64,000 bases of DNA from Xanthobacteraceae bacterium (lineage in GTDB: Bacteria > Pseudomonadota > Alphaproteobacteria > Rhizobiales > Xanthobacteraceae): NCBI GenBank assembly GCA_030037895.1, contig JASHPW010000016.1:1-64000 (forward strand), given 5' to 3'. The translations under genes were made by a program, and so were the position numbers. This document shows, in pieces, positions 18,744 to 36,488 of this stretch (its first letter is position 1; every line of letters starts with the position of its first letter). The notes under the pieces are model-generated. The model saw only the letters and a program-made list of their open reading frames with translations, was not told where the DNA came from and made no database searches.

Positions 18744-18753
18744 CGGTCCTTCC

Positions 18754-19704: not shown

Positions 19705-19883
19705 GCGCGTGGGCTCCGAGCATACCCCGGGCGGCCGTCCGATATCCGGACGCACCCGCCTGCCGCGACGTTGCGGTCGCGGCAGCCATGACTGTCAAGT
19801 AAAGCGATAACCTCGGCGATCAACATCGCATCACTCGTCTCCCGACCTGGCTCCCACCTCCGCCCGGATCGTCAGATCGGGCG

Positions 19884-19936: not shown

Positions 19937-19943
19937 AGTCGCC

Positions 19944-19972
19944 TATCTATGTAGCGCTTAGACCGTTGTCAA
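19944..19972 (-). promoter_or_regulatory. Sigma-70-type promoter of Ehr operon 1
   Basis: On the minus strand TTGACA (19972-19967) is followed after exactly 17 bases by TAGATA (19949-19944). Transcription would begin about at 19937, right at the 5' edge of the riboswitch aptamer, so the whole aptamer is in the leader. Confidence 0.75.
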
Positions 19973-20325: not shown

Positions 20326-20380
20326 AAAACTTCAATTGGAACTGTAGTGAAACGATGATATGCGTATGCATATTTTATCC

Positions 20381-20442
20381 GCGATGAAGCTCGCGTAAGC
20401 TGTGCTGGATATTATCCCAGTGTGGGCTGATGGCTTCTGCCC
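20381..20442 (+). promoter_or_regulatory. Candidate fluoride riboswitch (crcB motif) before Ehr operon 2
   Basis: The element reads CGCGATGAAGCTCGCG (20381-20396), GTAAGCTG, a stem CTGG/CCAG, then GGGCTGATGGCTTCTGCC (20424-20441). GAAGC in the first loop pairs with GCTTC in the 3' strand, a compensated version of the pseudoknot seen as GGAGT/ACTCC in the other copies; conserved GATG and GCTGATGG are kept. The ribosome site AAGGGAG of the HyfC-like gene starts four bases after the aptamer, so control is probably at translation initiation. The ATG at 20430 is inside the aptamer. Confidence 0.85.
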
Positions 20443-20459
20443 AAAAGGGAGAAGCTTGC

Positions 20460-21410
20460 TTGACCTCGGTCGCATTGCAGATTCTGCAGAGCGCGATTGT
20501 CGTTATCTTCGCGCCGCTGTACGCGGGGGTGTTGGCGCGCGCGGAGGCGATCGTCCAATCGAAGCGGGGCCCGAGCGTCCTGCAGCCCTATTGGGACCTC
20601 GCCAAGCTGCTGCGCAAGGGCAGCGCCATCTCCGAAAATGCTTCGTGGATATTCCGCATAGCGCCTTTCGTCGCTTTTTCCTGTTATCTGACCGTTTCGA
20701 CCATTGTGCCGATCATCACCGATCAACCGCTGCCGCTGGCCTTTCTCGCCGACCTGATCGGCGGCGCATTCGTGTTGAGCTTGGCCGGCTTTGTGACCGC
20801 ACTTGCCGCGCTCGACACGGCGAGCCCGCTCGGCGGTCTCGGCGCCAGCCGAACGACCTGGATCGGCAGCCTCGCCGAGCCGGCGCTGATCCTCGTCTTC
20901 TTCACCGTCGCCGCGGTTTCACGGTCAGACAATCCATATTTTGAGAATCACACCGTCGCCGGCTCGATTTCCGCCTATTTTCTGCCAACGCATTTGCTCG
21001 GTGTGGTCGCGTTCTTCATGCTCGTTCTGGTGGAGAACGGGCGAATCCCCATCGATAACCCCACGGGCTCGATTGAGATTTCGATGATCGAGGAGAGCCG
21101 GGTACTGGAATACTCGGGTCGTGAGTACGCGATCATCAAATGGGACGGCTGGATGAAGCTGTTCCTGCTTTCGTCGATCTTCATGAACGTCTTTGTCATC
21201 CCCTGGGGGCTTGGGCATGCCGACTCGATCGCCGGCGGCGTCGAGGGCGCGCTGGCCTTGCTCGGCAAGCTTGTCGTTTGCGGGCTGGCAATCGTCGTTA
21301 TCGACTGTTCGTTCGCCAAGCTTCGCCTATTCCGTATCGCCGAGTTTATAGGCGCTTCATTCCTGTTCGCCTTGATCGGAATCGTGACCGGATATGTGAT
21401 CGGAAGATAG
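20460..21410 (+). CDS. HyfC/NuoH-like membrane anchor subunit of Ehr complex 2
   Basis: 316 residues with eight membrane helices and NuoH marks VQSKRGPSVLQPYWDLAKLL, LVENGRIPIDNPTGSIE and ESRVLEYSGREYAIIKW. I choose the TTG at 20460 as start because it follows the AAGGGAG site by eight bases, gives a protein aligning end to end with the operon 1 paralogue, and lies just past the riboswitch. The in-frame ATG at 20430 is part of the conserved aptamer 3' strand and has no ribosome site. First gene of the rightward operon. Confidence 0.87.
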   Translation: MTSVALQILQSAIVVIFAPLYAGVLARAEAIVQSKRGPSVLQPYWDLAKLLRKGSAISENASWIFRIAPFVAFSCYLTVSTIVPIITDQPLPLAFLADLIGGAFVLSLAGFVTALAALDTASPLGGLGASRTTWIGSLAEPALILVFFTVAAVSRSDNPYFENHTVAGSISAYFLPTHLLGVVAFFMLVLVENGRIPIDNPTGSIEISMIEESRVLEYSGREYAIIKWDGWMKLFLLSSIFMNVFVIPWGLGHADSIAGGVEGALALLGKLVVCGLAIVVIDCSFAKLRLFRIAEFIGASFLFALIGIVTGYVIGR

Positions 21411-21421
21411 GGGCGGACGCC

Positions 21422-22084
21422 ATGTCGACGGTGAATCAAGGATTGTTGCTCGACTTGCTGTCCGTAGCGATCCTGCTGCTGACGTTCGCCTGCCTCGGCT
21501 CGAAGCTCTTTGACCGTTACGTCGCATACTACGCGCTGCAGTCGATCGTGCTTTCCGTGGCGATTGCTCTTGTGGCGTTACGCCTCGACGCTTGGGACCT
21601 TTGGGCGCTGGCGTTGCTCACGTTTTTGATCAAAGGAATCGGCATCCCTATCGCCACGCGGCGTTACCTCATCGTCCGGCTCGAGCTGAAGCGGGATGTG
21701 GCGATCTCAACCGGAATCTCCACGTCACTCATAATCGGTGCGGTGCTGACTGCCTTCGCTTATTTCGCGACAAACCCTTCGAGTCTTCCGGGCGGCCTGG
21801 TCGCTTCCTCCTCGGTGCCGCTGTCCAACGCCGTTATCTTGCTCGGCGCGCTCTGCATGGTTGTGCGGCGGAACACCGTAGCGCAGCTTATCGGATGGTT
21901 GATTCTCGAGAACGGCGTCTTTCTTGGCGCCATCACGCTGGTCGCAACCTTTCCGTTCATCGTCGAGGCGGGAATCTTCCTCGATCTGGTCGCCGGCGTT
22001 CTGATTATGCTGACCTTGGTCTCGGGTCTCGCCCACCGTTTGGCGACGACAAATGCCAGCGAACTGCAGGAGCTTAGGGAATGA
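21422..22084 (+). CDS. HyfE-like membrane subunit of Ehr complex 2
   Basis: 220 residues, seven membrane helices, with IGWLILENGVFLGAITL carrying the conserved NuoK/HyfE Glu. Paralogue of the operon 1 gene in the same second position. The ATG at 21422 comes 11 bases after the HyfC-like stop, with GGGGCGG as ribosome site; the frame extending to 21140 is a shadow. The stop overlaps the next start (ATGA). Confidence 0.85.
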   Translation: MSTVNQGLLLDLLSVAILLLTFACLGSKLFDRYVAYYALQSIVLSVAIALVALRLDAWDLWALALLTFLIKGIGIPIATRRYLIVRLELKRDVAISTGISTSLIIGAVLTAFAYFATNPSSLPGGLVASSSVPLSNAVILLGALCMVVRRNTVAQLIGWLILENGVFLGAITLVATFPFIVEAGIFLDLVAGVLIMLTLVSGLAHRLATTNASELQELRE

Positions 22085-23550
22085 CGCTCACGTTGGTCAT
22101 CCTCGTCTGCTGCCTGCCGCTTGCCGGTGCGCTCGCGTCGATTCTCGGCGCGCAGGCGCGTGGCATTGGCATTGCGACCGCGGCCGGCGGCGCCGGCGCC
22201 CTTGCGGCGGCAATCGCGCTTGTCGCGCACATTCTTTCTCACGGGACCTATCAGGCGGCCGTCGGATTCGTGTACGTCGACCCATTATCGTCTTTCTTTG
22301 TAGTAACGGTCGCTATTGTCGTCGCGCTCGCGGGTCTCGGTTCGATCTCATACCTTTGCGCCGAGGAGGCGCATCGGGGACTGAGCCGGGTCCAAGTCCG
22401 CCTTTACGGAATCTTTTTTGGCTTCTTCGCGGCGCTGATGTTGGCCTCGCTGGAAACGGGCAACCTCGGTCTGGTTTGGGTTCTGGTCGAAGCGTCGACG
22501 CTGGCGAGTGCGGTGCTTGTCGCGATTGAAGGGCGGGCGACTTCGCTTGAGGCGGCCTGGAAATACATCATCATCAGTTCTTTCGGCGTCACGATTGCCT
22601 TGGTGGGAACCCTGTTCCTCTATTACTCGGCCAGCGTCCTCGACATCGTGCCGGATCAGCGGCTGACGTGGCCGATCCTCTTTGCGAATGCCGCCTCTCT
22701 TCAACCCGCCAGCGTGAAGTTTGCCCTGTTGCTGGCGATCATCGGCTATGGGACGAAAGTCGGCTTGGCGCCGATGCATACTTGGCTTCCGGACGCGCAC
22801 GCCGAGGCACCGAGTCCGGCGAGCGCGATGCTTTCGGCGGCCCTCCTCAATACCGGCATGTACGCCATCATCCGCTTCCAAGCGTTAACCGGCCCCCAGC
22901 TCGGCCGTTACGGGAGCGTCGTGCTTCTTGTTTTCGGCTTCGCATCAATCGCGATCGGAGCGCTGTTCATGGTCCGGCGCCGCAATTTCAAGCGTCTTTT
23001 CGCATATTCGTCGGTCGAGCACATGGGGATCATTGCCGTCGGGCTCGGTTTCGGCGGAGTGCTCGGCGTCTACGGTGCGCTTCTTCACACCCTGAATCAC
23101 GCGATCGGCAAGTGCACATTGTTCCTCGCCAGCGGCGAGGTCGTGCTCCGCTACCGGACGACGCTGGTAAGCGAAGTCGGGGGCATTCTGGGCCGTGCGC
23201 CCGTTATCGGCACAGTCATGCTCCTCGGGTCGTTGGCCATCCTCGGGTCGCCGCCGTTCGGTCTCTTCCTGTCCGAATTTACCATCGTAAGGGCCGGCTT
23301 TGTGAGGCAGGCGAGTCTTGGCTTTCTTTTGCTCGCCCTGCTGGCGCTCGCTTTTATCGGCTGCGCGCACACGGTGGCCGCGATGGTGCTGGGCAAGCCG
23401 CGCAATGAAACGCCGCCGGCCGCGGCGTCGCTTCGATCTGTCGGCGCCGTGCCTCTCGTGATCGGACTGGCCGCTCTTCTCCTCCTCGGGCTGTGGATTC
23501 CAGGCGATCTCAATACGTTGATCCTCAAGTCGATAGAGGCGATCAGGTGA
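22081..23550 (+). CDS. HyfF/NuoN-type antiporter-like subunit of Ehr complex 2
   Basis: 489 residues, about 14 membrane helices. Ion-path residues: Glu in WVLVEASTLASA, Lys in GTKVGLAPMHTWLPDAHAEAP, Lys in RRRNFKRLFAYSSVEHMG and Lys in LNHAIGKCTLFLASG. The first-helix Glu environment (VEAS) differs slightly from operon 1 (VELT). Overlaps the HyfE-like stop by four bases and ends ten bases before the large-subunit start. Confidence 0.88.
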   Translation: MTLTLVILVCCLPLAGALASILGAQARGIGIATAAGGAGALAAAIALVAHILSHGTYQAAVGFVYVDPLSSFFVVTVAIVVALAGLGSISYLCAEEAHRGLSRVQVRLYGIFFGFFAALMLASLETGNLGLVWVLVEASTLASAVLVAIEGRATSLEAAWKYIIISSFGVTIALVGTLFLYYSASVLDIVPDQRLTWPILFANAASLQPASVKFALLLAIIGYGTKVGLAPMHTWLPDAHAEAPSPASAMLSAALLNTGMYAIIRFQALTGPQLGRYGSVVLLVFGFASIAIGALFMVRRRNFKRLFAYSSVEHMGIIAVGLGFGGVLGVYGALLHTLNHAIGKCTLFLASGEVVLRYRTTLVSEVGGILGRAPVIGTVMLLGSLAILGSPPFGLFLSEFTIVRAGFVRQASLGFLLLALLALAFIGCAHTVAAMVLGKPRNETPPAAASLRSVGAVPLVIGLAALLLLGLWIPGDLNTLILKSIEAIR

Positions 23551-23560
23551 GCCATGTGTG

Positions 23561-25096
23561 ATGCCTGAAACGCTTCAACAAACGGACGCTCTCCAGCTCC
23601 TGCGCAATGCCGTGTCCTCGCTCGACGTCGTAAAGGCGGGCAAACCAACGATCGAGGTGCGGATAGCGGCTCATGACCTCAAGCGTGCCGCACAAAGCCT
23701 TAACCGCGCCACGTCGCGTTTTGCCGACCTCTTCGTGAGCGTCGAAGGTGATGGATTGGTGCTCCAACTCGTTTACGCCTTCGATAAAGACGCGACCTAT
23801 GTGGTGCTGTCCGCGCCGGTGGAAAACCATGAGTACGCGCTGCTGTCGGATATCGTACCCGCAGCTTTCATCGAAGAGTGTGAGGCGTTTGAGAAATTCG
23901 GCGTCCTGCCGCGCGGCGCGAAACCGCTGAATCGCGTCGTCATGCCGCCGCAGGCCGAGCTTGAGTTTCCGCTCTCCGGCGGCCACCGCCGCATTAAGCC
24001 CCGTACCGCCCGCGCCCGTCACTTCGTCCAAGGCGAGGCGTTCGAATTTCCCTTTGGGCCGGTGCGGGTCGCGGGGTGGGAGTCGCTCTATATGGGCCTC
24101 GTTACCACCGGCGAGGAGGTGCTCGATCTCTATCTCTTCCACTGGCACAAGCACCGGGGCATCGAACACCGCCTGAATGGCCTCGATCCGCAGCGCGCGC
24201 TCTTCTTGGTCGAGCGCGCCGAGGGCCTGTCGGCGGTGGGGAATGGTCTGGCCTTTTGTCGTGCCGTCGAAGCGATCGCGGGCGTTGAGCTGCCGGCCAA
24301 GGTCGCCTGCGCGCGGGCGGTGGCGCTTGAGCTCGAGCGACTGTACAACCACGCCGCCGCCATTGCGATGTTGTGCCAGACGACGGGACTGAATGTCGGT
24401 CAGGCGCAAGCAGAAATCGTACTCGAACAATTGCTCCGCCTAAACCTTGCCGCCTTCGGCCACCGCTACCTCTTTGGCATCCTCGCCCCCGGCGGCGTGC
24501 GACGCGGTCCCGACCGCGAGGCTGTGCGCATGCTGCTGCCGAACATCTGCGCCGAGCTGCGCCGCGTCGTCGATGCGCTATTGAAGACGAACTCGCACCT
24601 CGATCGACTCGAAGCGACAGGCATCGTGGACCATGAAACGGCGCGCCGCCTCGCGCTGGTTGGGCCGGTCGCGCGCGCCTCCGGCTGCGTTGTGGACAGC
24701 CGCACGGATCATCCCTTTGCACCTTATGACCAGCAGAAACCGCGCGTGCCGGTGCAGGAAGCCGGCGATGCGCTCGCCCGTATGCAGATCTTTGTTGCGG
24801 AAATCGATGAAGCCGAGCGGCTGATCGACCGCTTGGTCGACGAAGCCGATCAGGGGCAGACGGAATTCGGCCCCGCGCATGGCGCGGCCCTTGGTTGGGC
24901 CGAATCGCCGCGGGGAGAATCGCTTGTTTGGGTAGCGCTCAACGCCGACGGGAAAATCGTCAGCGCTCGTCTACGGCCGGCTTCGGTGCGCAATTGGCGC
25001 GCCTTCGATGATGCGGTTCGCGCTCAAAACGTGTTCACCGACGTGCCGATCATCGAGGCAAGTTTCTGGCTGACGGTAGCGGGATTCGCGCGATGA
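23561..25096 (+). CDS. HyfG/NuoCD-like large subunit without [NiFe] ligands, Ehr complex 2
   Basis: 511 residues. A reduced NuoC-like part (ECEAFEKFGVLPRGAKPLN, about 106-124) precedes the large-subunit domain. After FHWHKHRGIEH the motif that is RVCGICGFAH in group 4 hydrogenases reads RAEGLSAVGN (about 219-228), and the C terminus is DVPIIEASFWLTVAGFAR with no DPCxxC. The [NiFe] ligands are all absent, and at different replacement residues than in operon 1, so the loss is old or shared and both copies have drifted. A GTG at 23558 directly before the ATG is an alternative start. Stop overlaps the next start (ATGA). Confidence 0.88.
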   Translation: MPETLQQTDALQLLRNAVSSLDVVKAGKPTIEVRIAAHDLKRAAQSLNRATSRFADLFVSVEGDGLVLQLVYAFDKDATYVVLSAPVENHEYALLSDIVPAAFIEECEAFEKFGVLPRGAKPLNRVVMPPQAELEFPLSGGHRRIKPRTARARHFVQGEAFEFPFGPVRVAGWESLYMGLVTTGEEVLDLYLFHWHKHRGIEHRLNGLDPQRALFLVERAEGLSAVGNGLAFCRAVEAIAGVELPAKVACARAVALELERLYNHAAAIAMLCQTTGLNVGQAQAEIVLEQLLRLNLAAFGHRYLFGILAPGGVRRGPDREAVRMLLPNICAELRRVVDALLKTNSHLDRLEATGIVDHETARRLALVGPVARASGCVVDSRTDHPFAPYDQQKPRVPVQEAGDALARMQIFVAEIDEAERLIDRLVDEADQGQTEFGPAHGAALGWAESPRGESLVWVALNADGKIVSARLRPASVRNWRAFDDAVRAQNVFTDVPIIEASFWLTVAGFAR

Positions 25097-25419
25097 CGAC
25101 TTGGTTTTTCCGCGGTCTACGAAAAGGGGTCGCAACAACGCGCTACCCGGCCGCGCTCGACTCCTGGGCTCGCAAGCTGCCTTCGCCGCCCGCTTTTGAT
25201 CCTCGGCGCCTGACCGAGGCGCTCGCCGACCGAATTGTGGCTGTCTGCCCGAGCCGCGCGCTCCGCAGGGATGGACGCGAACTCGTGCTTGATCTTGGCG
25301 CCTGTACGGGCTGCGGCCTCTGCTTCGGCGAAGCCGTCAGGCCAAGTGGTGAATTCGAACTTGCCTCCCGTTCACGGCAGCGGCTGATCAAACGCATACC
25401 GATCGAGGGCCGGCAATGA
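25093..25419 (+). CDS. Ferredoxin-like [4Fe-4S] subunit of Ehr complex 2
   Basis: 108 residues with four cysteines (52 in VCPSRAL; 71, 74 and 77 in CTGCGLC), enough for a single [4Fe-4S] cluster. The spacing is identical to that in the N-terminal half of the fused Fe-S subunit of operon 1. It corresponds to a trimmed HyfH/NuoI-like protein: standard family members carry two clusters. Overlaps neighbours on both sides by ATGA, so it is translated in strict coupling. Confidence 0.85.
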   Translation: MTTWFFRGLRKGVATTRYPAALDSWARKLPSPPAFDPRRLTEALADRIVAVCPSRALRRDGRELVLDLGACTGCGLCFGEAVRPSGEFELASRSRQRLIKRIPIEGRQ

Positions 25420-25910
25420 GCGAAGAATACCGGCTCGCTGAGGAATTGAAACAGCGCTCGCTCGCCATCTTCGGGCGAAGCCTGCATATAAGAACGATCG
25501 ACACCGGCTCTTGCGCCGTGTGCGAGTCGGAGATTCGGTTACTGACGGCGCCGCACTACGATCTGCACCGGCTTGGCTTCTTCTTCACTCCGGCGCCGCG
25601 GCATGCCGACTTGCTGCTGGTGACCGGCCCGGCGGTCCGGGCGATGAATGAAGGTCTGGATAAGACCTACAAAGCCATGCCTGATCCGAAGATCGTCGTC
25701 GCCATCGGCGCTTGCGCCCTTGGCGGCGTCTATGATGAGGACGAGTTCGTTCACGGGGCCGTCGACCGGGTGATTCCGGTCGACGTTTATATTCCCGGTT
25801 GTCCACCGAGCCCTTTGGCGCTCCTGCAGGGCTTGCTTGTCGCCGTCGGCCGGCTCGAAGAGAAAGTCGCGACGCTGCGCTTCGATGAAGTCAGGGGAGA
25901 GCGCGCATGA
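25416..25910 (+). CDS. NuoB/HyfI-like Fe-S subunit of Ehr complex 2
   Basis: 164 residues. Proximal [4Fe-4S] ligands Cys33 and Cys36 (GSCAVCESE), Cys100 (GACALGG) and Cys129 (PGCPPSP) are all present. It lines up with the C-terminal part of the fused operon 1 protein. In complex I this cluster (N2) donates electrons to quinone at the interface with the NuoD and NuoH subunits. ATGA overlaps on both sides. Confidence 0.88.
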   Translation: MSEEYRLAEELKQRSLAIFGRSLHIRTIDTGSCAVCESEIRLLTAPHYDLHRLGFFFTPAPRHADLLLVTGPAVRAMNEGLDKTYKAMPDPKIVVAIGACALGGVYDEDEFVHGAVDRVIPVDVYIPGCPPSPLALLQGLLVAVGRLEEKVATLRFDEVRGERA

Positions 25911-27928
25911 CGGCGACAACGTTGCTGCTCCTCGGCGCCGCCTCTCTGTGGGCGGCCGCAGTGGTGCTTGCCGCCTTCGCATCGGTACGCTGGGGGCTTG
26001 CCGCGTCGGCGCTCGTTTCGGCCGTTGGCGGCGCGCTCGCCGCGGCGGGCGGGATCGTCGTCGCGATCAATGGTTCGGGCGTTGCCTGGGTGGTCGGGGC
26101 CAGCAACATCGTCGGCGCCGTGAGCCTGCGGCTTGATCCGTTGGCCGCGGTATTCGTCGTGCTGCTCGGCCTGGTCGCGCTCGCGATCGGGCTATTTGCT
26201 CCGCGCTACCACGAGCTTGGCCGCGGCAGCAGCTTTTACCTCTCCTCCTACAACCTGGCCCTGCTCGCCTCGCTCGGCATCCTCGTCGCCGGGAACGCAA
26301 CTGTGTTCCTTGCCGCTTGGGAGTCGATGACGTTGTTCAGCTACTTGTTGATCCTGCGCCACCATCGCCGCGTCGGCGTCGCCAAGGCCGCTTTCCTTTT
26401 CTTGGCGCTGGGAGAAGTTGGCTTCGTTCTCATTGTGGCGGCTTTTGCCGTTCTTGCCGCGAAAACCGGGACGCTCGACTTTGCCGCGATGGCGAGCCGC
26501 AGCCACGCCGTCCCGCTCGCCTGGCGCGGCGTCGTCTTCGTGCTGGCGTTGATCGGCTTCGGCTTCAAGGCCGGCTTGGTTCCCCTGCACATCTGGCTTC
26601 CCGAAGCGCACCCGGTCGCGCCGGCGGATGGGTCGGGATTCTTGTCGGGAATGATTATCAAGCTCGGAGTTTACGGGATAATGCTCTTCGTGTTCGAGCT
26701 GCTCGGCGGAGGGCCGGTCTGGTGGGGAGTGCTGACAACGTGCATCGGAGCCCTCACGGCCGTGATCGGCGTCCTCTACGCGGTGATCGAGCGAGATTTC
26801 AAGCGGCTGCTTGCCTACCACAGCATTGAGAATATCGGCATCATCGTAACCGCCACCGGCGCCGCTATGATCTTTGCTGCGGATGGGCAGAATGCTCTCG
26901 GGGCCTTCCTGCTCATCGCCGCGCTCTATCACGTGATAAATCACGGCACCTACAAGACGCTCCTGTTCATGGAGGCGGGCGTTATCGAGCATGTAACGGG
27001 GACTCGAGACCTCGACCTGCTCGGCGGGCTCATTCATCGGCTCAAAGTTTCGACGGTGATCAGTCTCATTGGCACGCTCGGGATCGCCGGGCTTCCGCCG
27101 CTGAACGGCTTTGTCAGCGAGTGGCTCGTTTTCCAGGGACTCTTTCAAGGCTTTCGCATCGAGCCGTTGGTCGGTGTCGTGATGGTGATCGCCGGCGCGG
27201 CCTTGGCGCTGTCCGGCGGTCTCGCGATCATGGCATTTGCCCACGCCTTTGGAATCGCGTTCCTCGGAATGCCGCGAAGCCAGGATGCTGCCGATGCCCG
27301 CGAACAGGGGCAGCCGATTCTCGGCCCCGCGGTGTTGGCGGCCGCTTGCATTGCGCTGAGCATTGGCGCTCCCGCGGTCGTGCTGACGCTCGATCATGTC
27401 ACCAAATCGGTGACCGGCGTCGAGTTGCAGCCCAATTTACTCATTGCAAACCTCGCCATCATACCCGCTTACACGGGCTTCTCCTCGTTCTCGCCGACCT
27501 ATCTGGCCGCCTTCTTGTTCTGCGTCGTCGCGGTGCCGCTGCTTATATATTTCCTCAGCCGGCCACGGGCCAACACGCGGATCGTTCCGGTCTGGGACGG
27601 AGGCATTCTCGCGTTCAAGGCCAGAATGCAATATAGCGGTACCGCGTTCGCCAATCCGGTGCGTGTCACTTTCGACCAACTGTATCGGCCCCGCGTTCAC
27701 GTCGAGCGCGCCTCGGACGATCCGGCCGGTCGCGCGGGGCCGGTGCATTATCGCTTCCGCGTATTGCCGCTGTTCCAGCTCTACCTTTACCGGCCGATCG
27801 TGCGCGCAGTGGACTGGCTGGCGGAGACGATCCGGCCCATCCAATCAGGTGACGTCAACTTGTATCTGCTCTACATCTTCCTTGTCGTTGTCGCTGCCTA
27901 TCTCATTCATATGATCGATACGTTCTAA
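25907..27928 (+). CDS. HyfB-like antiporter-type membrane subunit of Ehr complex 2
   Basis: 673 residues with about 16 membrane helices. Ion-path residues: Glu in FLAAWESMTLFSYL, Lys in GFGFKAGLVPLHIWLPEAHP, Lys in VIERDFKRLLAYHSIENIG, and TGTRDLDLLGGLIHR as in HyfB proteins. Last gene of the operon, 40 residues shorter than its operon 1 paralogue. No clear terminator follows; the next 220 bases lead to the promoter of the third riboswitch. Confidence 0.88.
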   Translation: MTATTLLLLGAASLWAAAVVLAAFASVRWGLAASALVSAVGGALAAAGGIVVAINGSGVAWVVGASNIVGAVSLRLDPLAAVFVVLLGLVALAIGLFAPRYHELGRGSSFYLSSYNLALLASLGILVAGNATVFLAAWESMTLFSYLLILRHHRRVGVAKAAFLFLALGEVGFVLIVAAFAVLAAKTGTLDFAAMASRSHAVPLAWRGVVFVLALIGFGFKAGLVPLHIWLPEAHPVAPADGSGFLSGMIIKLGVYGIMLFVFELLGGGPVWWGVLTTCIGALTAVIGVLYAVIERDFKRLLAYHSIENIGIIVTATGAAMIFAADGQNALGAFLLIAALYHVINHGTYKTLLFMEAGVIEHVTGTRDLDLLGGLIHRLKVSTVISLIGTLGIAGLPPLNGFVSEWLVFQGLFQGFRIEPLVGVVMVIAGAALALSGGLAIMAFAHAFGIAFLGMPRSQDAADAREQGQPILGPAVLAAACIALSIGAPAVVLTLDHVTKSVTGVELQPNLLIANLAIIPAYTGFSSFSPTYLAAFLFCVVAVPLLIYFLSRPRANTRIVPVWDGGILAFKARMQYSGTAFANPVRVTFDQLYRPRVHVERASDDPAGRAGPVHYRFRVLPLFQLYLYRPIVRAVDWLAETIRPIQSGDVNLYLLYIFLVVVAAYLIHMIDTF

Positions 27929-28115: not shown

Positions 28116-28144
28116 TTGCTCGAGCGAACGTGAACGCCTATCTT
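28116..28144 (+). promoter_or_regulatory. Promoter of the dynamin/NUDIX operon
   Basis: TTGCTC (28116-28121) and TATCTT (28139-28144) are separated by exactly 17 bases. Transcription would start near 28151, at the first base of the downstream riboswitch. The same arrangement is found ahead of the riboswitches at 19.9 and 32.2 kb. Confidence 0.6.
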
Positions 28145-28152
28145 CTTTGGCA

Positions 28153-28203
28153 GGGGATGGGGTTCCCCCTTCGACCGCCAAGAAAAGGCTGATGACTCCT
28201 ACC
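28153..28203 (+). promoter_or_regulatory. Candidate fluoride riboswitch (crcB motif) before the dynamin/NUDIX operon
   Basis: This copy is closest to the family consensus: GGGGATGGGGTTCCCCC, then GACCGCC, AAGAAAA, GGCTGATGACTCCTACC. GGGGT in the first loop pairs with ACTCC (one G-U) for the pseudoknot, and GCC/GGC forms the second stem. The end of the aptamer (CCTACCGC) can instead pair with GCGGTGGG at 28214-28221, an alternative hairpin that would break the pseudoknot. The leader is about 275 bases long before the first gene. Confidence 0.9.
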
Positions 28204-28226
28204 GCGATATCAGGCGGTGGGAACAT

Positions 28227-28427: not shown

Positions 28428-28850
28428 ATGAAGAATCTGGCGCGGCCTTCCTTCTTCCGTGTTTTCGATTTGCTGCTGGGCACGACCAATCCCGGCTTGA
28501 AGCTGTCGTCGTGGATGCATGACGGCGTCGCCTGGGAGCGCGAACGCCACAGCTTCACCGGTCCCAAACACGGCCAGACCATCGAGATCTTCACTCTCAC
28601 GCGGCCGGGAAAACACGGTTGGAGCGTCATGATCGTCAAGGAATATTGGTGGGTCGGCAAGGAAAGCAGGGCATTGAAGGCGGTGCGTTGGGCCAAGCCG
28701 ATCGACGGCGAGCGCGACGACATCATGCAATGGTTCCGTGCGCAGGAAGCCGCGCTCGACCACCAATTGGAGGTTGGAGCCGCGTCTTCGGCGGAGCATG
28801 CGAATGGCGCCGAGGACATCGAGATGTTCGATACTGCCGATGACGACTAG
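28428..28850 (+). CDS. Unknown 140-aa protein of a fluoride-riboswitch operon
   Basis: I do not recognise the family. The protein has a basic N terminus (MKNLARPSFFRVFDLLLGTT), a region rich in Trp and aromatic residues (WMHDGVAWERERHSFTGP, GWSVMIVKEYWWVGKESRAL), a helix (DIMQWFRAQEAALDHQ) and an acidic tail ending DTADDD. No signal peptide or membrane helix is evident. The start has GGAGGA seven bases upstream. It is the first gene after the riboswitch, and the dynamin-like gene follows within about 15-40 bases, so the two should act together, perhaps at a membrane. Function unknown. Confidence 0.8.
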   Translation: MKNLARPSFFRVFDLLLGTTNPGLKLSSWMHDGVAWERERHSFTGPKHGQTIEIFTLTRPGKHGWSVMIVKEYWWVGKESRALKAVRWAKPIDGERDDIMQWFRAQEAALDHQLEVGAASSAEHANGAEDIEMFDTADDD

Positions 28851-28891
28851 TCGGCAGGAGGAGTTTGGAAGGCAGGGGAGCTTGGAAGAAA

Positions 28892-30721
28892 GTGGATCGA
28901 ACCACGGATACGACGGCTCTGTCGCCGAGAGAGAGCGGCTTTGGCTCGGACGTTTTAAACGTGCTCGAGCGGGCCGGCAGCCTCCTTGCGTCCGCGGTTG
29001 GCGCAGACTCTCCGTTGCGTATCCGGCTGCTGGCGCTCACCGACCGTCTCCGGCACGAGCGGTTGCAGATCGCGGTGCTCGGTCAATTCAAGCGCGGGAA
29101 AAGCACGTTCGTGAACGCCTTGCTCGGGGCGCCGCTGTTGCCGACCGCCGTCGTTCCGCTGACCGCGATTGCGACCTTCATTGCCTGGCGCGAGCAACCG
29201 CTGGTCATTGTCCGGTTTATGGGCGCAAAGCCGCCGCAGGAATTCACCGTCAATCGGGCCGACGACATTCGCGACGTTCTTTTTCGTTTCGTGACCGAGG
29301 AAGCAAACCCGAAGAACGAACTCGGGGTTGAGCGCGTCGAGCTTTTCTACCCCGCCGCCATTTTGGCCGACGGCACCGTGCTGATCGATACGCCGGGTAT
29401 CGGCTCGACGCTCGCGCACAACACCGAGGCGGCGCTGCGGCTGCTGGCGGAGTGCGATGCGTCGCTGTTCGTCGTATCGGCCGACCCGCCGATCACCGAG
29501 GTGGAGCTCGGCTATCTGCGGCGGTTGAAGCCCAAAACCGGCCGCACGTTCTTTGTCGTCAACAAGATCGATTACCTCACCGGCGACGAACAACGGACGG
29601 TCGTAGATTTCCTGCGCAAGGTATTGACGGGTGAATCGTTTATCGATCCCGGAGCGCCGATTTTCGGCATATCGGCGCGTCTGGGACTGGCGGCCAAGCA
29701 GGAGCAAAATCGCGAGGCCCTGGAAAGGAGCGGCATAACGGAAATCGAGGACCATCTCGTCCATTATCTGGCAACGGAGAAAACGCGGTCTCTGCAGGAA
29801 GCGGTCAGGCGAAAGGCGGCGGACATCGTGGCGCAAGCGGGCGGCGAGATCGAGCTTTCCGCCAAAGCGCTCAAAATGCCGCTGCAGCAGTTGGAGCAGA
29901 AGTCGTCCGACTTTGCCCAGACGCTCCGTTCGATCGAGGCGCAGCGCTTGACGATCGGCGATCTTCTGGCCGGCGACCGGCGGCGCCTGGTCGGCGATCT
30001 CGAAGCGCAAATCCAGGGTTTGCGCGAAAGCGCATTGTCCCGGCTGACGCAGGTGATCGATGAAGGCTTGGCTCATGCGGAAACCGCGTGGGAAGAAAAG
30101 GTCAAATCGACGGTCTCCGCGGCTATCGAGCAGATCTTTGGCGACGCCAACGAGCGCTTCATCGAAGCATTCTCGCGGCAAGCGGGAGACATCCTTGCCG
30201 GTCACCGGCGGCGGATCGACGCGCTGGTCGATGACGTGCGCCGCACCGCGGCCGAGATGTTCGATGTCGTGTTCGCGCCCGAGGGCGAGCCGGAAGCCTT
30301 TCGGCTGCGGCAAGAACCGTATTGGGTCACGGAGCGCATCGCTTCGACGCTCATTCCCGACTTCGGCCGGCTGATCGACCGGGCGTTGCCCGCGGCGCTT
30401 CAGCGCCGCCGGCGCCGGACCCGCATCATCGCGGAGACGAATGAGCTGATCATACGCAATGCCGAAAGTCTGCGCTGGGCGATATTGCGCGGTCTCGATG
30501 AGACCTTTCGTGCCGCCGCCATGCAGATGGAGGAGAGGCTCGGCGACGCGCTCACTGCTACCAGGGGCGTCATCGAGGATGCCTTGGCGCGCCGCCGCGA
30601 TCGCTCATTTGCAACCGAACCGGCGCTCGATCGACTGCACCGCTCGCTGCAGGCATTGGCCGCGATCCGCGACGCGCTGCTGACGTCGGACCGAAGCATG
30701 GCCCAAGGAGCATCAATGTGA
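28892..30721 (+). CDS. Bacterial dynamin-like GTPase
   Basis: 609 residues. G-domain motifs: P-loop GQFKRGKST (about 64-72), switch Thr in VPLTAIAT, DTPGIG (about 166-171) and NKID (about 224-227). The long helical C-terminal part (residues 300-600) is rich in charged residues and resembles the stalk of bacterial dynamin-like proteins, which tubulate or repair membranes. A short hydrophobic patch lies near FRLRQEPYWVTERIASTLIPDFG and may be the paddle. The GTG at 28892 is my choice of start; a TTG at 28865 is possible. It sits in the fluoride-riboswitch operon between the unknown protein and the NUDIX gene, with which it overlaps by GTGA. A role in membrane protection during fluoride stress is inference. 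Confidence 0.87.
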   Translation: MDRTTDTTALSPRESGFGSDVLNVLERAGSLLASAVGADSPLRIRLLALTDRLRHERLQIAVLGQFKRGKSTFVNALLGAPLLPTAVVPLTAIATFIAWREQPLVIVRFMGAKPPQEFTVNRADDIRDVLFRFVTEEANPKNELGVERVELFYPAAILADGTVLIDTPGIGSTLAHNTEAALRLLAECDASLFVVSADPPITEVELGYLRRLKPKTGRTFFVVNKIDYLTGDEQRTVVDFLRKVLTGESFIDPGAPIFGISARLGLAAKQEQNREALERSGITEIEDHLVHYLATEKTRSLQEAVRRKAADIVAQAGGEIELSAKALKMPLQQLEQKSSDFAQTLRSIEAQRLTIGDLLAGDRRRLVGDLEAQIQGLRESALSRLTQVIDEGLAHAETAWEEKVKSTVSAAIEQIFGDANERFIEAFSRQAGDILAGHRRRIDALVDDVRRTAAEMFDVVFAPEGEPEAFRLRQEPYWVTERIASTLIPDFGRLIDRALPAALQRRRRRTRIIAETNELIIRNAESLRWAILRGLDETFRAAAMQMEERLGDALTATRGVIEDALARRRDRSFATEPALDRLHRSLQALAAIRDALLTSDRSMAQGASM

Positions 30722-31410
30722 CCCTTCGCCGACGCGCCCGAGGACGTTTGGCAATGCCGCGCGGCAAAGCCAAATCCGGCGATCCGACTCTCGTCATGCT
30801 TCTCGCCGACCCCGAAATCCGCTTGCTCATGCGCGCGGACAACGTCAATGAAGACGAGCTGCGGAATATGTTCAATAACATTTCGGTTCGGCTTCGCGAG
30901 GCAAGCGGCTCTCTAAAGAACAGAGGGCGACGGACGAAGGATGCCGGGACGCGCAAATACCGGCGCGGCGTCGGTATCATGCTTGTGAACGCGCGTACCG
31001 AGGCATTCATCGCCCGACGCAACGACGTGCCCGGAAAGGTCTGGCAGATGCCGCAAGGCGGCATCGACCGCGGCGAAACTCCAAGGCAGGCCGCATTCCG
31101 TGAGCTAAAGGAAGAGATCGGGACCAACAATGCGGAGATCATCGCCGAGAGCAAGCGCTGGCTCTATTACGACCTGCCCGCGGGCTTGGCGAAGCAGGCA
31201 TGGGGCGGGCGCTGGCACGGACAGCGCCAAAAATGGTTTGTGATGATGTTCAAGGGGAAGGACGCGGATATCAATCTCGCCGTCAAGGATCCGGAATTCG
31301 ACGCCTGGCGCTGGGTTCCGGTTCGTGAATTGCAAAGGCTCGCAGTCTCCTTCAAGAGGAAACTCTATGTGTCTCTACTCGGAGAGTTTGCGTCGATTTT
31401 TCGTGATTGA
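30718..31410 (+). CDS. NUDIX hydrolase, RppH-like
   Basis: 230 residues. The NUDIX box is complete, GGIDRGETPRQAAFREL then KEEIG (about 114-135). The core YRRGVGIMLVN, VWQMPQGG and WLYYDLP is that of RppH/diadenosine polyphosphate hydrolases, which remove pyrophosphate from 5' RNA ends or cleave Ap4A. An extra basic N-terminal region of about 75 residues precedes the domain and is absent from housekeeping RppH. The GTG at 30718 overlaps the dynamin stop; an internal ATG at 30754 (MPRGKAKSG) is possible. Last gene of the operon. Fluoride blocks metal-dependent pyrophosphate chemistry, which may explain the link, but this is inference. Confidence 0.87.
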   Translation: MTLRRRARGRLAMPRGKAKSGDPTLVMLLADPEIRLLMRADNVNEDELRNMFNNISVRLREASGSLKNRGRRTKDAGTRKYRRGVGIMLVNARTEAFIARRNDVPGKVWQMPQGGIDRGETPRQAAFRELKEEIGTNNAEIIAESKRWLYYDLPAGLAKQAWGGRWHGQRQKWFVMMFKGKDADINLAVKDPEFDAWRWVPVRELQRLAVSFKRKLYVSLLGEFASIFRD

Positions 31411-31450: not shown

Positions 31451-32077
31451 TCAAGTCGGCCCGAGTCCGGCGAGGTGAGAGGTTTCGTTGATCCGTAGCA
31501 CCGCGGGCGTGTCTTCATTGAAGTCGATCTCGCTGATGCCGCAGGGCTCGAGGACGAGGCGCCAATACGCGGACAGCGGCTGATCGAGCACCTGCATCAG
31601 CAGTGCGCGATTGATGCTGTCGTGGCCGACGAGGACGACGACCTGGCCGCGATGGTGCGCCAGCACGTAGCGCCAGACATCGCCGGCGCGCGCGGCCAGA
31701 TCCTGAAGGGATTCCCCGTTCGGGAAGCGGAACAATTGCGGCATCGTCTGCCAAGTGGCGAACGACTTCGGGACGGCGCTCCTGATGTCTTCATACGTCT
31801 TCCACTGCCAATCTCCATAATCCAGATCGTTGAGCGGCCCAAGAACCTCGCTCGGGACGTTGCACGCTTCGGCAATCGCGGCTCCCGTCGCCACGCACCG
31901 ACTCATGGGGCTGGTGTAGACCGCGCGCGTCCGCCAGGACGCGGCGATCCGCCGGGCGCTCGCCCTGGCCTGGGCGACGCCCAAAGCGGTGAGCGGAACG
32001 TCGGCCCGCCCGCGGAAGCGCGGCGGCGCGATGCCTTCGACGTGCCCGTGGCGCGTCAGAATGATCTTGGTCGTCAC
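31451..32077 (-). CDS. Histidine phosphatase family protein
   Basis: 208 residues with the phosphoglycerate-mutase-like fold. Catalytic RHG is in LTRHGHVEG (residues 7-9 region), the acid in GPLNDLDYGDWQ, and the second His in VGHDSINRALL. The GTG at 32077 follows a GGAGG site by nine bases and places RHG at the usual distance from the N terminus. It resembles the alpha-ribazole phosphatase/PGM-like branch; its substrate cannot be assigned. It is convergent with the NUDIX gene and divergent from the fourth riboswitch operon, whose promoter lies 60 bases away. It may be part of the same stress island. Confidence 0.83.
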   Translation of the reverse strand: MTTKIILTRHGHVEGIAPPRFRGRADVPLTALGVAQARASARRIAASWRTRAVYTSPMSRCVATGAAIAEACNVPSEVLGPLNDLDYGDWQWKTYEDIRSAVPKSFATWQTMPQLFRFPNGESLQDLAARAGDVWRYVLAHHRGQVVVLVGHDSINRALLMQVLDQPLSAYWRLVLEPCGISEIDFNEDTPAVLRINETSHLAGLGPT

Positions 32078-32138
32078 TCCGTGGGTCCTCCGACGGCGCG
32101 GTCGCGCGCGATGCCCCATGCTCCGATCGACGCCCGCC

Positions 32139-32166: not shown

Positions 32167-32177
32167 AAGATCGAGAC

Positions 32178-32225
32178 TGGGCATGGAGTCGCCATTATCT
32201 GCCGAAAAGGCTAATGACTCCTACC
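32178..32225 (+). promoter_or_regulatory. Candidate fluoride riboswitch (crcB motif) before the MutS-like operon
   Basis: The aptamer reads TGGGCATGGAGTCGCC (first stem-loop), ATTATCTGCC, GAAAA, GGCTAATGACTCCTACC. GGAGT and ACTCC form a perfect pseudoknot and GCC/GGC the second stem. It shares AAAAGGCTRATGACTCCTAC with the copy at 28.15 kb. The 3' strand is also the 5' arm of a competing hairpin (see the next entry). Confidence 0.87.
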
Positions 32226-32279
32226 GCGGATGGGCGCGGTAGGAGGGTCCGTGGGGGCCCGCCGCGCGGCGGGCTTTTT
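32218..32279 (+). terminator. Switch hairpin and intrinsic terminator of the fourth riboswitch
   Basis: CTCCTACCGCG (32218-32228) pairs perfectly over 11 bp with CGCGGTAGGAG (32235-32245), using the aptamer's own pseudoknot strand. A second hairpin GCCCGCC/GGCGGGC (32257-32274) is followed by TTTTT (32275-32279), a textbook intrinsic terminator. When fluoride holds the aptamer, the freed CGCGG arm could pair with CCGCG in the terminator stem and prevent termination. That mechanism is inference; the hairpins are seen directly. Confidence 0.8.
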
Positions 32280-32354: not shown

Positions 32355-33983
32355 ATGGCGAATGCGGCAAACCCCGACATGCTCGACCGCGGCCGCGTGC
32401 GCCGGCCGGCTCCGTCAGCGGATCAGGCGGTGATGGAGAGACCCGAGCCGGCGGCCGTCATCAGCATTCTGTTCGAGCGGCCGGCCGACCGCGGCGGCGA
32501 CTCCCTCACCGCGCCCGCTTATTTTGTCAACCTCAATTGCGATCAGATCGTCGACGCCGTTACCGCCGGCAAGGACGAATACAATCTGAAGCCGTTCTTT
32601 TACGACTGTCTCACGCGCGTCGACGCGATCCGCTATCGTCACGAGGTGATGCGGGATCTCGAGAGCCAGTTCCTCTATGAACGCGTCATCGGCTTCGCCG
32701 CCAGCATGCGCGACATGCGCGAGCATCTCCGTCGCGCGCAAAAGATGCATTACAAGGAGCAGAGGCAGGCGTGGTTCCTGGACGCGGTCGCGATCTATTG
32801 CGCCGCCGTCGGCGGGTTCGCCGACGACCTCGCCGAGACGGATCTGAAATCCCGCGGCTTCCTGCGCTTGCGCGACTATATGGCGAGCTACGCCGGTTCC
32901 GCCCGCTTCCGGTCGCTTCTCTCCGCGACCAAGAAGCTTAAGGATGATTTGGCGGCGATAGAATATTGCGTGCTGGCAAAGGGGACGAGCTTTACCGTTT
33001 GCAAATATGAGGACGAGACCGATTACAGCGTCGAAGTCGAGGAAACGTTCGCGAAATTCAAGCAGGGCGCCGCCAGGGATTACCGGGTCAAGTTCCCGGC
33101 CAGCGAGGACATGAACCATGTCGAAGCCAAGATCCTGGAATTCGTCGCCAAATTGCATCCCGAAGTTTTCGTCGCCTTGGACGATTATTGCGCCAGAAAC
33201 GGCGATTTTGTCGACCGAACCGTCGCTGTCTTTGACCGCGAAGTTCAATTCTACATCGCCTATTTGGAACACATCGCCGTACTGACGCGCGCGCGGCTGC
33301 AGTTCTGTTATCCGCGCATGTCCGACAAGACCAAGGACGTCTATGCCTTTGACGGATTCGATATTGCGCTCGCCCACAAGCTCGTCGGCGAAGGCGGATC
33401 CGTGGTCTGCAACGACTTTCATCTTCAGGGTCAGGAGCGGATCCTGGTCGTGTCCGGTCCCAATCAAGGCGGAAAAAGCACCTTTGCCCGCACATTTGGA
33501 CAGATGCATTACCTGGCGAGCATCGGCTGTCCGGTGCCGGGCAGGGAAGCGCAACTTCTACTCTTCGACCAGATGTTCACCCATTTCGAGAAAGTGGAAA
33601 AGGTCGAGAACCTCCGCGGCAAGCTGGAAGATGATTTGGTGAGAATTTACGAGATTCTCAATCAAGCCACGTCGCGCTCAATCATCATCATGAACGAAAT
33701 TTTCACCTCCACGACGATTCAGGATGAGTCTTTCTTGAGCAAGAAGGTGATGGAGAAAATAGTGGAGCTGGACTTGATTTGCGTTTGGGTGACTTTCGTC
33801 GACGAATTGGCGTCGTTCGGACCGCAAACCGTTTCCATGTGCAGCATGGTCGTTCCGGAAAATCCGGCGTTGCGGACCTTCAAGGTGGTGAGACGGCCGG
33901 CCGACGGGCTTGCCTATGCCATGGCGATTGCTCAGAAGTACGGGCTGACCTACGACGCAATCACGGAGCGGATCAGGTCATGA
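32355..33983 (+). CDS. MutS-like ATPase 1 (MutS domain V protein)
   Basis: 542 residues. The C-terminal part has the MutS ATPase motifs: VVSGPNQGGKSTFARTFG (P-loop about 368-376), and Walker B IIIMNEIFTSTT (about 443-454), then a region like the MutS signature helix. The N-terminal 330 residues are helical, like the lever/clamp of MutS, without the mismatch-binding domain I (no FxE motif seen). It is therefore not a standard mismatch-repair MutS. The ATG at 32355 starts 75 bases after the riboswitch terminator. It overlaps the next gene by ATGA. The two MutS-like proteins probably form a heterodimeric ABC-type ATPase. MutS-like genes are among those reported behind crcB-motif RNAs. Confidence 0.85.
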   Translation: MANAANPDMLDRGRVRRPAPSADQAVMERPEPAAVISILFERPADRGGDSLTAPAYFVNLNCDQIVDAVTAGKDEYNLKPFFYDCLTRVDAIRYRHEVMRDLESQFLYERVIGFAASMRDMREHLRRAQKMHYKEQRQAWFLDAVAIYCAAVGGFADDLAETDLKSRGFLRLRDYMASYAGSARFRSLLSATKKLKDDLAAIEYCVLAKGTSFTVCKYEDETDYSVEVEETFAKFKQGAARDYRVKFPASEDMNHVEAKILEFVAKLHPEVFVALDDYCARNGDFVDRTVAVFDREVQFYIAYLEHIAVLTRARLQFCYPRMSDKTKDVYAFDGFDIALAHKLVGEGGSVVCNDFHLQGQERILVVSGPNQGGKSTFARTFGQMHYLASIGCPVPGREAQLLLFDQMFTHFEKVEKVENLRGKLEDDLVRIYEILNQATSRSIIIMNEIFTSTTIQDESFLSKKVMEKIVELDLICVWVTFVDELASFGPQTVSMCSMVVPENPALRTFKVVRRPADGLAYAMAIAQKYGLTYDAITERIRS

Positions 33984-35590
33984 AAGCGTTCCTGATGTAC
34001 CGCGACCGCGACTTTGATCCCGAGCAACTGCTGGTGCGCAGGGAAAAGGAGCTTCGTCATAGCAGGGGCAACCCGGATCAGGCGCTTGATCTGCAGCAGA
34101 TTTTACCGTGGAACGGCGAGGCGCTGAGGCAGGACCTCGGGCTGGACGTTTTGCTCAATGCCATGAGCCAGGGCGACAAGTTCATGTACGAGGTCGCCAA
34201 GGTGGCGATGCTCGCGAGCTTAACCGATGCGGACGCCATTCGCTATCGTCAACATATCCTCGCCGATTGTCTGCAGAACGAGCAGATTGTCAGGGAGCTT
34301 TTTCAGATCGCCATTGAGACGATCGAGAGCGAGAAGAAGAACTACTGGAGCTTCCTGACCCGTTACCCCGGCGGGATACTTCACCGCGCGGTTGACGTGC
34401 TGCGGCTGTTCGTCGGCATGTTGAGAAGGCTGAGAAATGTCGCGGACCAACACGCGGATAAATTCGAATCGGAGGGTTTTGCGCGGCTTTTTGCGATGCT
34501 GAAGAAGGAGCTCAGCGACGAGTATTTCGCGGCAATCGAGGGACATTTGAACCGGCTCAAATTTCGAAACGGGGTTTTGCTCAGCGCGCGATTGGGAAAG
34601 GGCAACAAAGGGAAAAGCCATGTGCTGCGCAAGCCGCACGAGGATCAGCGGTCCTGGCTGACGCGTCTCATCTCGGAACGGCCACCCTCCTATACATTTC
34701 ACCTGCATCCGCGCGACGAGGCCGGAACCCGGGCGTTGGCGGAATTGAGCGACCGGGGCGTCAATCTCGTGGCCAATGCTTTGGCCCAGTCGACCGATCA
34801 TATTCTCAGTTTTTTCCAGATGCTGCGCACGGAATTGGCGTTTTACGTCGGTTGCATGAATTTGTACGGCCAGCTCGTGCAGATGGGCGAACCGGCATGC
34901 TTCCCGGATTTTGCGCCGGCCGGCCAACGGCGATTGTCGTTTTCCGCTCTGTACGACGCGTCGCTGACCCTGAGCATGGGACGAAAGGTTGTCGGCAACG
35001 ACCTCGATGCCGACGGGACCGACCTGGTCATCGTCACCGGCGCGAATAGCGGCGGCAAATCGACCTTCCTGCGCAGCATCGGCCTCGCCCATTTGATGAT
35101 GCAGGCCGGCATGTTCGTGGCCGCCGAAGCGTTTTCCTCCGAACTGTGCGACGGCCTGTTCACGCACTTCAAACGCGAAGAAGACACGACAATGGAGAGC
35201 GGCAAATGGGATGAAGAACTCGCCAGAATGAGCGAAATAGTCGGCCGGATCAAATCCAATTCGTTGCTGCTGTTGAATGAATCATTCGCGTCGACGAACG
35301 AACGGGAAGGCTCGGAGATTGCGAGCCAGATCGTCACAGCGCTGCTGCAGCGGCGCGTAAAGGTATTCTTCGTCACGCATTTGTATCATTTCGCGCACTT
35401 CCTTTTTGCCCGCGGATCGAGCCGCGCGGTGTTCATGCGCGCCGAGAGGCGGTCCGACGGCACGAGGCCGTTCAAACTGATCGTCGGCGAGCCGTTGCAA
35501 ACAAGCTACGGCGAAGACCTGTATCGAGCGGTCTTCTCCGGCGATGGATCAAGAATGGCGCCGGCAAGGAGAGACAAAGCGGCGGTATAG
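33980..35590 (+). CDS. MutS-like ATPase 2 (MutS domain V protein)
   Basis: 536 residues. P-loop VTGANSGGKSTFLRSIG (GxxxxGKST about 354-362), Walker B LLLLNESFASTNE, and the His loop near FFVTHLYHFAHF follow the MutS ABC ATPase order. The N-terminal part is long-helical. It differs strongly from its upstream neighbour and also lacks a mismatch-recognition domain. Start ATG overlaps the previous stop. Together with MutS-like 1 and the HEAT protein it forms the operon behind riboswitch four. DNA or RNA target unknown. Confidence 0.85.
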   Translation: MKAFLMYRDRDFDPEQLLVRREKELRHSRGNPDQALDLQQILPWNGEALRQDLGLDVLLNAMSQGDKFMYEVAKVAMLASLTDADAIRYRQHILADCLQNEQIVRELFQIAIETIESEKKNYWSFLTRYPGGILHRAVDVLRLFVGMLRRLRNVADQHADKFESEGFARLFAMLKKELSDEYFAAIEGHLNRLKFRNGVLLSARLGKGNKGKSHVLRKPHEDQRSWLTRLISERPPSYTFHLHPRDEAGTRALAELSDRGVNLVANALAQSTDHILSFFQMLRTELAFYVGCMNLYGQLVQMGEPACFPDFAPAGQRRLSFSALYDASLTLSMGRKVVGNDLDADGTDLVIVTGANSGGKSTFLRSIGLAHLMMQAGMFVAAEAFSSELCDGLFTHFKREEDTTMESGKWDEELARMSEIVGRIKSNSLLLLNESFASTNEREGSEIASQIVTALLQRRVKVFFVTHLYHFAHFLFARGSSRAVFMRAERRSDGTRPFKLIVGEPLQTSYGEDLYRAVFSGDGSRMAPARRDKAAV

Positions 35591-36488
35591 CTTGATCGGC
35601 GCTAACGCGCCTGGGTTTGTCGCGGCAAAACGGATGAGAGGAGGGGCCGGTCGAGCGGCCGCCCCGGCGGAAATGAATCTCGCGAGCCGACAACACGACG
35701 TGGATCTGGCGATCGGCAAGCTCAAATCGCTCCACGATGGCGACGTTGGCGTCGTCGAAGTTGTCGCTTGCGGCGCCTCGGCGATTCCGGCCCTCCGTGC
35801 CATGCTGTTCCAACGCGAGGTGAGCGGCCTTTTTGATACGCGTTGTCGCGCGGTGGAGGCTTTGGCCGCTCTTGGAGCCGGCGATGTCCTGATCGAATAC
35901 CTGAACGTCGAGCATTTGGCCGCCGATCCGGTCGAGCGCCTCGGCGACGATGCCGTCATCAACGCCGCGGCGCGGGCGTTGGCAAAGACGCGTGAAGAGC
36001 GCGCAATACCGCTTCTGCTGCGGCTTGCCCGACGGCCCGCTCTCAGCGGCGTGATCGCGGCTTTGGGCGCGTTTGACCGCACTGAAGCGATCCCGGTGCT
36101 GATCGATGCGCTGGAGGACGATGCCAGCCGGCAATCGGCGCAATCCGCACTCAAGCGAATGGGCCGGACCGCGCGTCCGGCTTTGGTTGCGTCCGCGAAC
36201 TGCCGCTTGCCGACGCCCGATCGCGAGAGCGAATCGAGCCTGCGGCGACGGAGAAGCGCGCTCGCACTGTTGGCGGAGATCGGGCTGTCGCGCGAGACCT
36301 GGCCGGAAGTCCGCTCCCTCGTCCGGGACAAGGATGCGAGGATCGCCGTGCTGGCGTGCAAGCTCTGTCTCGCGCACGCCCCGACGCGCGAAAGACGCGC
36401 CGCCATCGGTCGCCTGAACGAACTGCTGCTCAGCGCGGATTGGATGCTGCGCCAGGAGATCGAAGCCTGTCTCGCTATTCACTCCTGA
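35544..36488 (+). CDS. HEAT-repeat protein
   Basis: Up to 314 residues of helical repeats: ACGASAIPALRAMLFQ, CRAVEALAALGAGDVLIEYL, AIPLLLRLARRP, AIPVLIDALEDDASRQSAQ and similar units of about 30-35 residues mark a HEAT/PBS-lyase-type scaffold. No catalytic residues stand out. The longest frame overlaps MutS-like 2 by 47 bases; the repeat domain proper begins near residue 44, so starts at 35634 or 35673 are possible and none has a clear ribosome site. Probably a protein-protein adaptor for the two ATPases, by position. Confidence 0.75.
   Translation: MDQEWRRQGETKRRYSLIGANAPGFVAAKRMRGGAGRAAAPAEMNLASRQHDVDLAIGKLKSLHDGDVGVVEVVACGASAIPALRAMLFQREVSGLFDTRCRAVEALAALGAGDVLIEYLNVEHLAADPVERLGDDAVINAAARALAKTREERAIPLLLRLARRPALSGVIAALGAFDRTEAIPVLIDALEDDASRQSAQSALKRMGRTARPALVASANCRLPTPDRESESSLRRRRSALALLAEIGLSRETWPEVRSLVRDKDARIAVLACKLCLAHAPTRERRAAIGRLNELLLSADWMLRQEIEACLAIHS

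Follow-up and report, generated by a model that had tools for sequence, protein, structure and literature searches.

Genes A and B, adjacent in a putative fluoride island of a Xanthobacteraceae bacterium, represent on their sequences a separate and normally paired branch of the MutS family that is blind to mismatches by the known route and set apart from MutS1, MutS2 and KamC, the proteins compared. The two proteins probably form a heterodimer, a complex suggested by their co-occurrence, translational overlap and joint inheritance, and a fluoride riboswitch lies directly upstream of gene A. It has been known since 2010 that genes called 'mutS' occur under the crcB/fluoride motif (PMC2864571). 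What is new, as far as the open literature searched and a comparison with MutS1, MutS2 and KamC can indicate, is that they probably belong to a MutS branch of their own, paired and mismatch-blind, in which the ATPase sites are altered. No functional paper on MutS and fluoride was found in that literature.

The A-B pair and its place in the MutS family

The pair lies within the window, the whole stretch of 64,000 nucleotides analysed here, as follows.

32355-33983, + strand: gene A, MutS-family ATPase of 542 amino acids
Motifs of A: Walker A GPNQGGKST at residues 368-376; GK at 422-423; Walker B Asn447-Glu448 (33693-33698); VTF481 replacing TH
33980-35590, + strand: gene B, MutS-family ATPase of 536 amino acids
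Motifs of B: Walker A GANSGGKST at residues 354-362; GK at 408-409; Walker B Asn433-Glu434 (35276-35281); TH466-467 retained
Residues 193-246 of B: basic clamp-like region

A first-pass annotation of this DNA had described tandem genes with an ATGA overlap that encode very different MutS ATPase cores, and on both points it was right. Its coordinates for the locus are also correct. The ATGA at 33980-33983 is common to the 3' end of gene A and the start of gene B, and the two proteins share only 22% identity over 438 aligned columns, though they are clearly paralogues over nearly their full length (hhalign, 1.6e-41). Homologues of B were found at 80 loci (46-71% identity) in about nine phyla, namely Pseudomonadota, Bacteroidota/Ignavibacteria, Chloroflexota, Acidobacteriota, Actinomycetota, Spirochaetota, Verrucomicrobiota, Bacillota and Acetothermia. 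The closest relatives of the window locus are Hyphomicrobiales/Xanthobacteraceae metagenome genomes, and since a close B was present in 6 of the 20 searched genomes of the same genus, the window genome counted, the distribution of the locus is patchy.

In the homologous loci, wherever the contig allows it, gene A almost always lies directly 5' of gene B in the same orientation, an adjacency conserved far above chance. The two genes overlap in 67 of 72 pairs, by 4 nt in 64 of them and by 1 nt in 3, and the distance matrices of A and B correlate with r = 0.86. One old duplication giving rise to a heterodimer would be the simplest reading of these relationships. The obligate heterodimer that had been proposed at first is therefore upheld as to the pairing and is probable as to the complex, but the word 'obligate' goes a step further that can only be inferred, and an intact A is absent from three loci, where either B occurs without A (L022) or just the C-terminal part of A is present (L036 and L037). 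A family of about 180 amino acids without a Pfam match is encoded near B in several loci (L036:10029-10595; also L022, L034, L037, L052 and L062), and in L022 its member stands upstream of B, where A is absent. L073 and L082 are overlapping stretches of one Actinomycetes contig that carries two tandem A-B pairs. A natural A-B fusion, for which L083 (Pannonibacter carbonis) was a candidate, was rejected, as gene A of this locus contains a one-base frameshift near its end (L083:8400-9000), whether real or a sequencing error.

Pfam PF00488 (MutS_V) was the sole MutS domain matched in A (2.2e-19) and B (3.3e-21), and with scores of 70.6 and 76.6 bits, respectively, against a curated cut-off of 30.2 it places both proteins in the MutS superfamily. 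This domain was found in all 142 homologues tested (68 of A and 74 of B), and the models for MutS_I, II, III, IV, KOW and Smr had no match in any of them. In the homologues Walker A is preceded by a stretch of no more than some 310-380 residues, which leaves no room for domains I and II in addition to the core. The absence of a mismatch-recognition domain had been claimed at the outset, with a canonical MutS domain I named as the find that would speak against the whole view; a search for it in the 142 homologues gave no match, and the predicted folds agree. The AlphaFold models were confident (pLDDT 88.0 for A and 86.7 for B; pTM 0.85 each), and Foldseek matched them to MutS, MutS-beta and MutS2, with best E values of 5e-19 for A and 2e-18 for B.

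Among these, MutS2 is closest in domain make-up. A core and ATPase without domains I and II is the arrangement of MutS2 and, according to Pfam and the predicted folds, of A and B as well, neither having a mismatch-recognition or connector domain. However, the C-terminal KOW and SMR domains of MutS2 were unmatched in the 142 homologues, A and B scored 63.2 and 72.9 bits against the 400 of the MutS2 equivalog, and MutS2 is a homodimer whereas A-B would be a heterodimer from two genes. Differences also extend to the Walker-B Asn, the trans Gly-Lys and the fluoride riboswitch of the A-B branch. With MutS1 and the eukaryotic MutS-alpha and MutS-beta, A and B have in common the ATPase domain and overall core fold, and the two eukaryotic complexes are asymmetric heterodimers as A-B may be. 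Unlike them, A and B have altered ATPase motifs, and the domain I and connector domain II that define MutS1 are missing throughout the 142 homologues; scores against the MutS1 equivalog TIGR01070 were 69.7 (A) and 63.7 bits (B) versus 641.7. In a tree of ATPase domains A and B formed sister clades (0.995), apart both from MutS1 (0.97) and from a clade of MutS2 and KamC (0.976). A defence system was also considered and rejected, since PADLOC gave weak ATPase matches only and no A homologue was found in phage records at 1e-30.

Fluoride riboswitches and mobile islands

The riboswitches and related elements of the window are these.

32170-32230, + strand: aptamer of the fluoride riboswitch (RF01734) that immediately precedes gene A
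32218-32279, + strand: expression platform, from sequence, fold and repeat scan
28144-28208, + strand: strong fluoride riboswitch (46.9 bits), upstream of a small-gene/dynamin/NUDIX operon
19881-19944, - strand: weaker riboswitch match (33.1 bits, below cut-off)
20371-20446, + strand: weaker riboswitch match (26.0 bits, below cut-off)

The aptamer before gene A, which is on the same strand and ends 125 nt from the start of the gene, scored 32.5 bits, just under the Rfam gathering score of 34 (E 1.7e-7), and 26.1 bits with model R1; zero chance occurrences of its core pattern are expected in the window. An 11-bp inverted repeat of the platform (32218-32228 / 32235-32245) overlaps the 3' strand of the aptamer, which can thus form a helix with downstream sequence, and beyond it comes the terminator, a G+C-rich hairpin (32257-32274) with T5 on its 3' side. 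With a covariance model built from 14 fluoride riboswitches, some of which came from sites upstream of A, 46 of 75 loci had a riboswitch no more than 520 nt before gene A (median distance 78 nt), against 3.7 expected from the density of hits. Rfam alone gave direct sites above cut-off in L012, L014, L034 and L058, and the pattern search by itself found sites in 24 loci, with many more added by the covariance model. The link to fluoride that had been suggested for this locus is thus supported, in the window and well beyond it. A reading in which the distant riboswitch at 28144 alone accounts for this link was rejected, given the separate riboswitch of gene A.

The two weaker matches point outwards, each preceding a divergent cluster (12073-19755, - strand, and 20430-27928, + strand) of complex-I/hydrogenase-4-like membrane genes that are NuoH-, 4L-, antiporter- and 49/30-kDa-like. 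Two further riboswitches above the Rfam cut-off are present in the same genome (G000:C47:21330-21389 and G000:C71:113-172).

Other genes near the pair in the window are as follows.

28428-28850, + strand: unknown 140-aa gene, island neighbour
28865-30721, + strand: dynamin-like GTPase, island neighbour
30718-31410, + strand: RppH-like NUDIX protein, island neighbour
31451-32119, - strand: histidine phosphatase (phosphoglycerate-mutase-like), recurrent island member
35544-36488, + strand: HEAT-repeat protein gene (HEAT_2, 6e-9), start uncertain

The order riboswitch, 140-aa gene and dynamin recurs in L006 and L007, and the 140-aa gene occurs also in L009, L046 and L061. A scaffold role for the HEAT protein, and with it a heterotrimer, had been proposed in the first-pass annotation and finds no support here. 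HEAT homologues occur in 6 of the 80 loci, at variable distance, on either strand and in half the cases beside the dynamin-like gene, so that HEAT was rejected as a core part of the pair and is better regarded as an accessory island neighbour. Its overlap with B (35544-35590) is itself doubtful: alignments with homologues begin no earlier than about residue 47-57, which makes Met44 at 35673 just as plausible a start.

Across the 80 loci the flanks examined contain enolase in 28, CrcB in 18, MFS, dynamin-like GTPase and DUF190 proteins in 15 each, a PGM-like phosphatase in 14, complex-I/formate-hydrogenlyase-like genes in 8-14, pyrophosphatase in 10 and a Na+/H+ antiporter in 9. A fluoride marker was present in the flanks examined of 67 loci; short or truncated contigs account for at least six of the other 13. 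The pair was also found on 48 plasmid records, among whose hosts are Klebsiella, Citrobacter, Enterobacter and Rhodococcus; of the 48 records, 21 were typed as conjugative. On Enterobacter and E. coli plasmids a unit of riboswitch, antiporter, uspA, A and B adjoins one of P-type ATPase, crcB, gpmA and eno, which on the E. coli plasmid is followed by uspA and a gene for a DHHA2-domain protein. The wastewater plasmid p027_SK3a of E. coli 027_SK3 (L145) carries a large fluoride island in which the A-B pair is accompanied by exporter genes and three annotated fluoride riboswitches. With a pair-bearing island on an E. coli plasmid, the role of a MutS ATPase against fluoride becomes testable in a standard laboratory species.

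Of the same island type is the operon of Enterobacter cloacae FRM, with its riboswitch, eno, uspA, ppaC, gpmA, crcB and cation ATPase, for which fluoride resistance has been shown experimentally (PMC5533749). It differs in having no A-B pair, which in the islands on plasmids of E. coli and Enterobacter is located beside these genes. FRM is highly resistant without A-B in its island, and the pair is therefore at most accessory there.

Altered ATPase sites and possible function

Changes in the ATPase sites set A and B apart from the other MutS proteins compared. In both subunits the Asp-Glu of Walker B is replaced by an invariant Asn-Glu (A N447-E448, B N433-E434), and the trans signature Ser-Thr by a nearly invariant Gly-Lys (A G422-K423, B G408-K409). 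A alone has also lost a conserved His, having VTF where MutS1, MutS2, KamC and B have TH or SH. In MutS the Walker-B Asp is a ligand of Mg2+, and switching that depends on Mg2+ is weakened without it; fluoride, for its part, acts via Mg2+ complexes. A tie between the Walker-B Asn and the Mg2+ complexes of fluoride is therefore conceivable. The natural absence of this Asp from both subunits corresponds to the change engineered in E. coli MutS D693N (PDB 3k0s). The region between the helical arms, in which the clamp-forming residues were assigned from secondary structure alone, is basic in B (residues 193-246; mean net charge +4.9, positive in 95% of homologues) and neutral in A (-0.2). This suggests that B may contact nucleic acid or ribonucleoprotein, although as evidence of binding such a charge is weak. 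Of the action on RNA, ribosomes or DNA structures that the first-pass annotation had put forward, the basic region tilts the balance towards nucleic acid without being proof.

We propose, with a confidence that falls a little short of even, that A-B is a heterodimeric MutS branch, induced by a riboswitch within a mobile fluoride-resistance island, which acts as an ATP-driven clamp on nucleic acid or ribonucleoprotein; the nature of the substrate is the weakest step. Binding of intracellular fluoride to the leader RNA would keep the terminator from forming; A and B would then be translated in coupled amounts and assemble into an asymmetric ring resembling the MutS2 core. The basic clamp region of B would contact the nucleic acid or ribonucleoprotein, with A as a neutral partner, and ATP binding at the two modified sites could close or remodel the clamp while depending little on tightly bound Mg2+. 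Such a switch might keep working while fluoride poisons ordinary Mg-dependent phosphoryl-transfer enzymes, and the clamp would release or protect a complex stalled under fluoride, acting beside export (CrcB, CLC), pH control (antiporters) and enzyme replacement (enolase, pyrophosphatase, PGM). More tentatively, and on balance doubtfully, the sites of this asymmetric clamp may have been rebuilt, through the Walker-B Asn and trans Lys, to work or be gated amid Mg-fluoride and so to free fluoride-trapped complexes, be they the ribosome, a nucleic-acid enzyme or a metabolic enzyme. If this is true, the A-B clamp would give fluoride resistance an arm devoted to repair, in addition to export and target replacement.

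There are four rival explanations. It is conceivable, though rather unlikely, that the A-B ATPase is an enzyme-reactivating chaperone which restores inhibited metabolic enzymes, chiefly enolase, by dismantling the dead-end Mg2+-fluoride(-phosphate) complexes in which they are caught. Enolase is a classical target of fluoride (PMC11139923) as well as the most frequent neighbour in the islands, and a MutS-family ATPase, KamC (NF052383), is named as an enzyme reactivase, that of lysine 5,6-aminomutase. KamC is like A and B in being a short MutS-family ATPase, and its profile matches them weakly (45.5 bits for A and 74.6 for B, versus the 300 of NF052383), but its Walker B and trans motifs are canonical, its partner is a small P-loop protein and not a second MutS, and it falls in a clade with MutS2; a KamB/KamC-like pair was rejected on these grounds. 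In a first search of the phylum of L026, KamC gave only background matches under the cut-off. Moreover, many loci have no enolase in the flanks examined, the only enolase of the window genome is on another contig, and by supplying a spare enolase the islands offer an alternative route to the same end.

A MutS2-like ribosome rescue, in which A-B docks on fluoride-stalled ribosomes and splits them with ATP, we consider unlikely. The MutS2 ATPase splits collided ribosomes (PMC10897456), and a likeness of function could be read from the MutS2-like core of A and B, from the Foldseek match of A to ribosome-bound MutS2 (7qv3) and from the lack of any MutS2 in the window genome. Yet KOW and SMR, by which MutS2 is recruited to collisions, are absent from the homologues of A and B, the tree does not group them with MutS2, and MutS2 requires hydrolysis and its Walker-B region, where Walker B is altered in A and B.

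Quite improbable is DNA repair, a role in which A-B would recognise mispairs or DNA damage produced under fluoride and to which the gene annotations point. Repair is also the reading given to crcB-motif RNAs upstream of 'mutS' genes in the accessible passages of Weinberg 2010 (PMC2864571). Those MutS-annotated genes under a fluoride riboswitch very probably encode the same proteins as A and B, and the pair structure, domain loss and ATPase changes do not appear in these passages. The family resemblance to MutS and the basic clamp-like region of B would fit repair, but MutS_I to IV are unmatched in all 142 homologues, and a canonical MutS1 is encoded elsewhere in the window genome (C73) and altogether in 16 of the 19 pair-bearing genomes checked, this one included. 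Such coexistence makes a partnership with classical mismatch repair unlikely. MutS1 was unmatched in the other three, the Actinomycetota L058, L075 and L079, all of which have the A-B pair. The many database entries that read 'DNA mismatch repair protein MutS' are accordingly misleading.

Finally, it is very improbable that the pair is a passenger of fluoride islands with no role of its own against fluoride. The 13 marker-less loci and the resistance of FRM without the pair would suit this explanation, but six or more of those loci are short or truncated contigs, and a passenger would hardly retain a riboswitch directly upstream of A in so many loci from many phyla.
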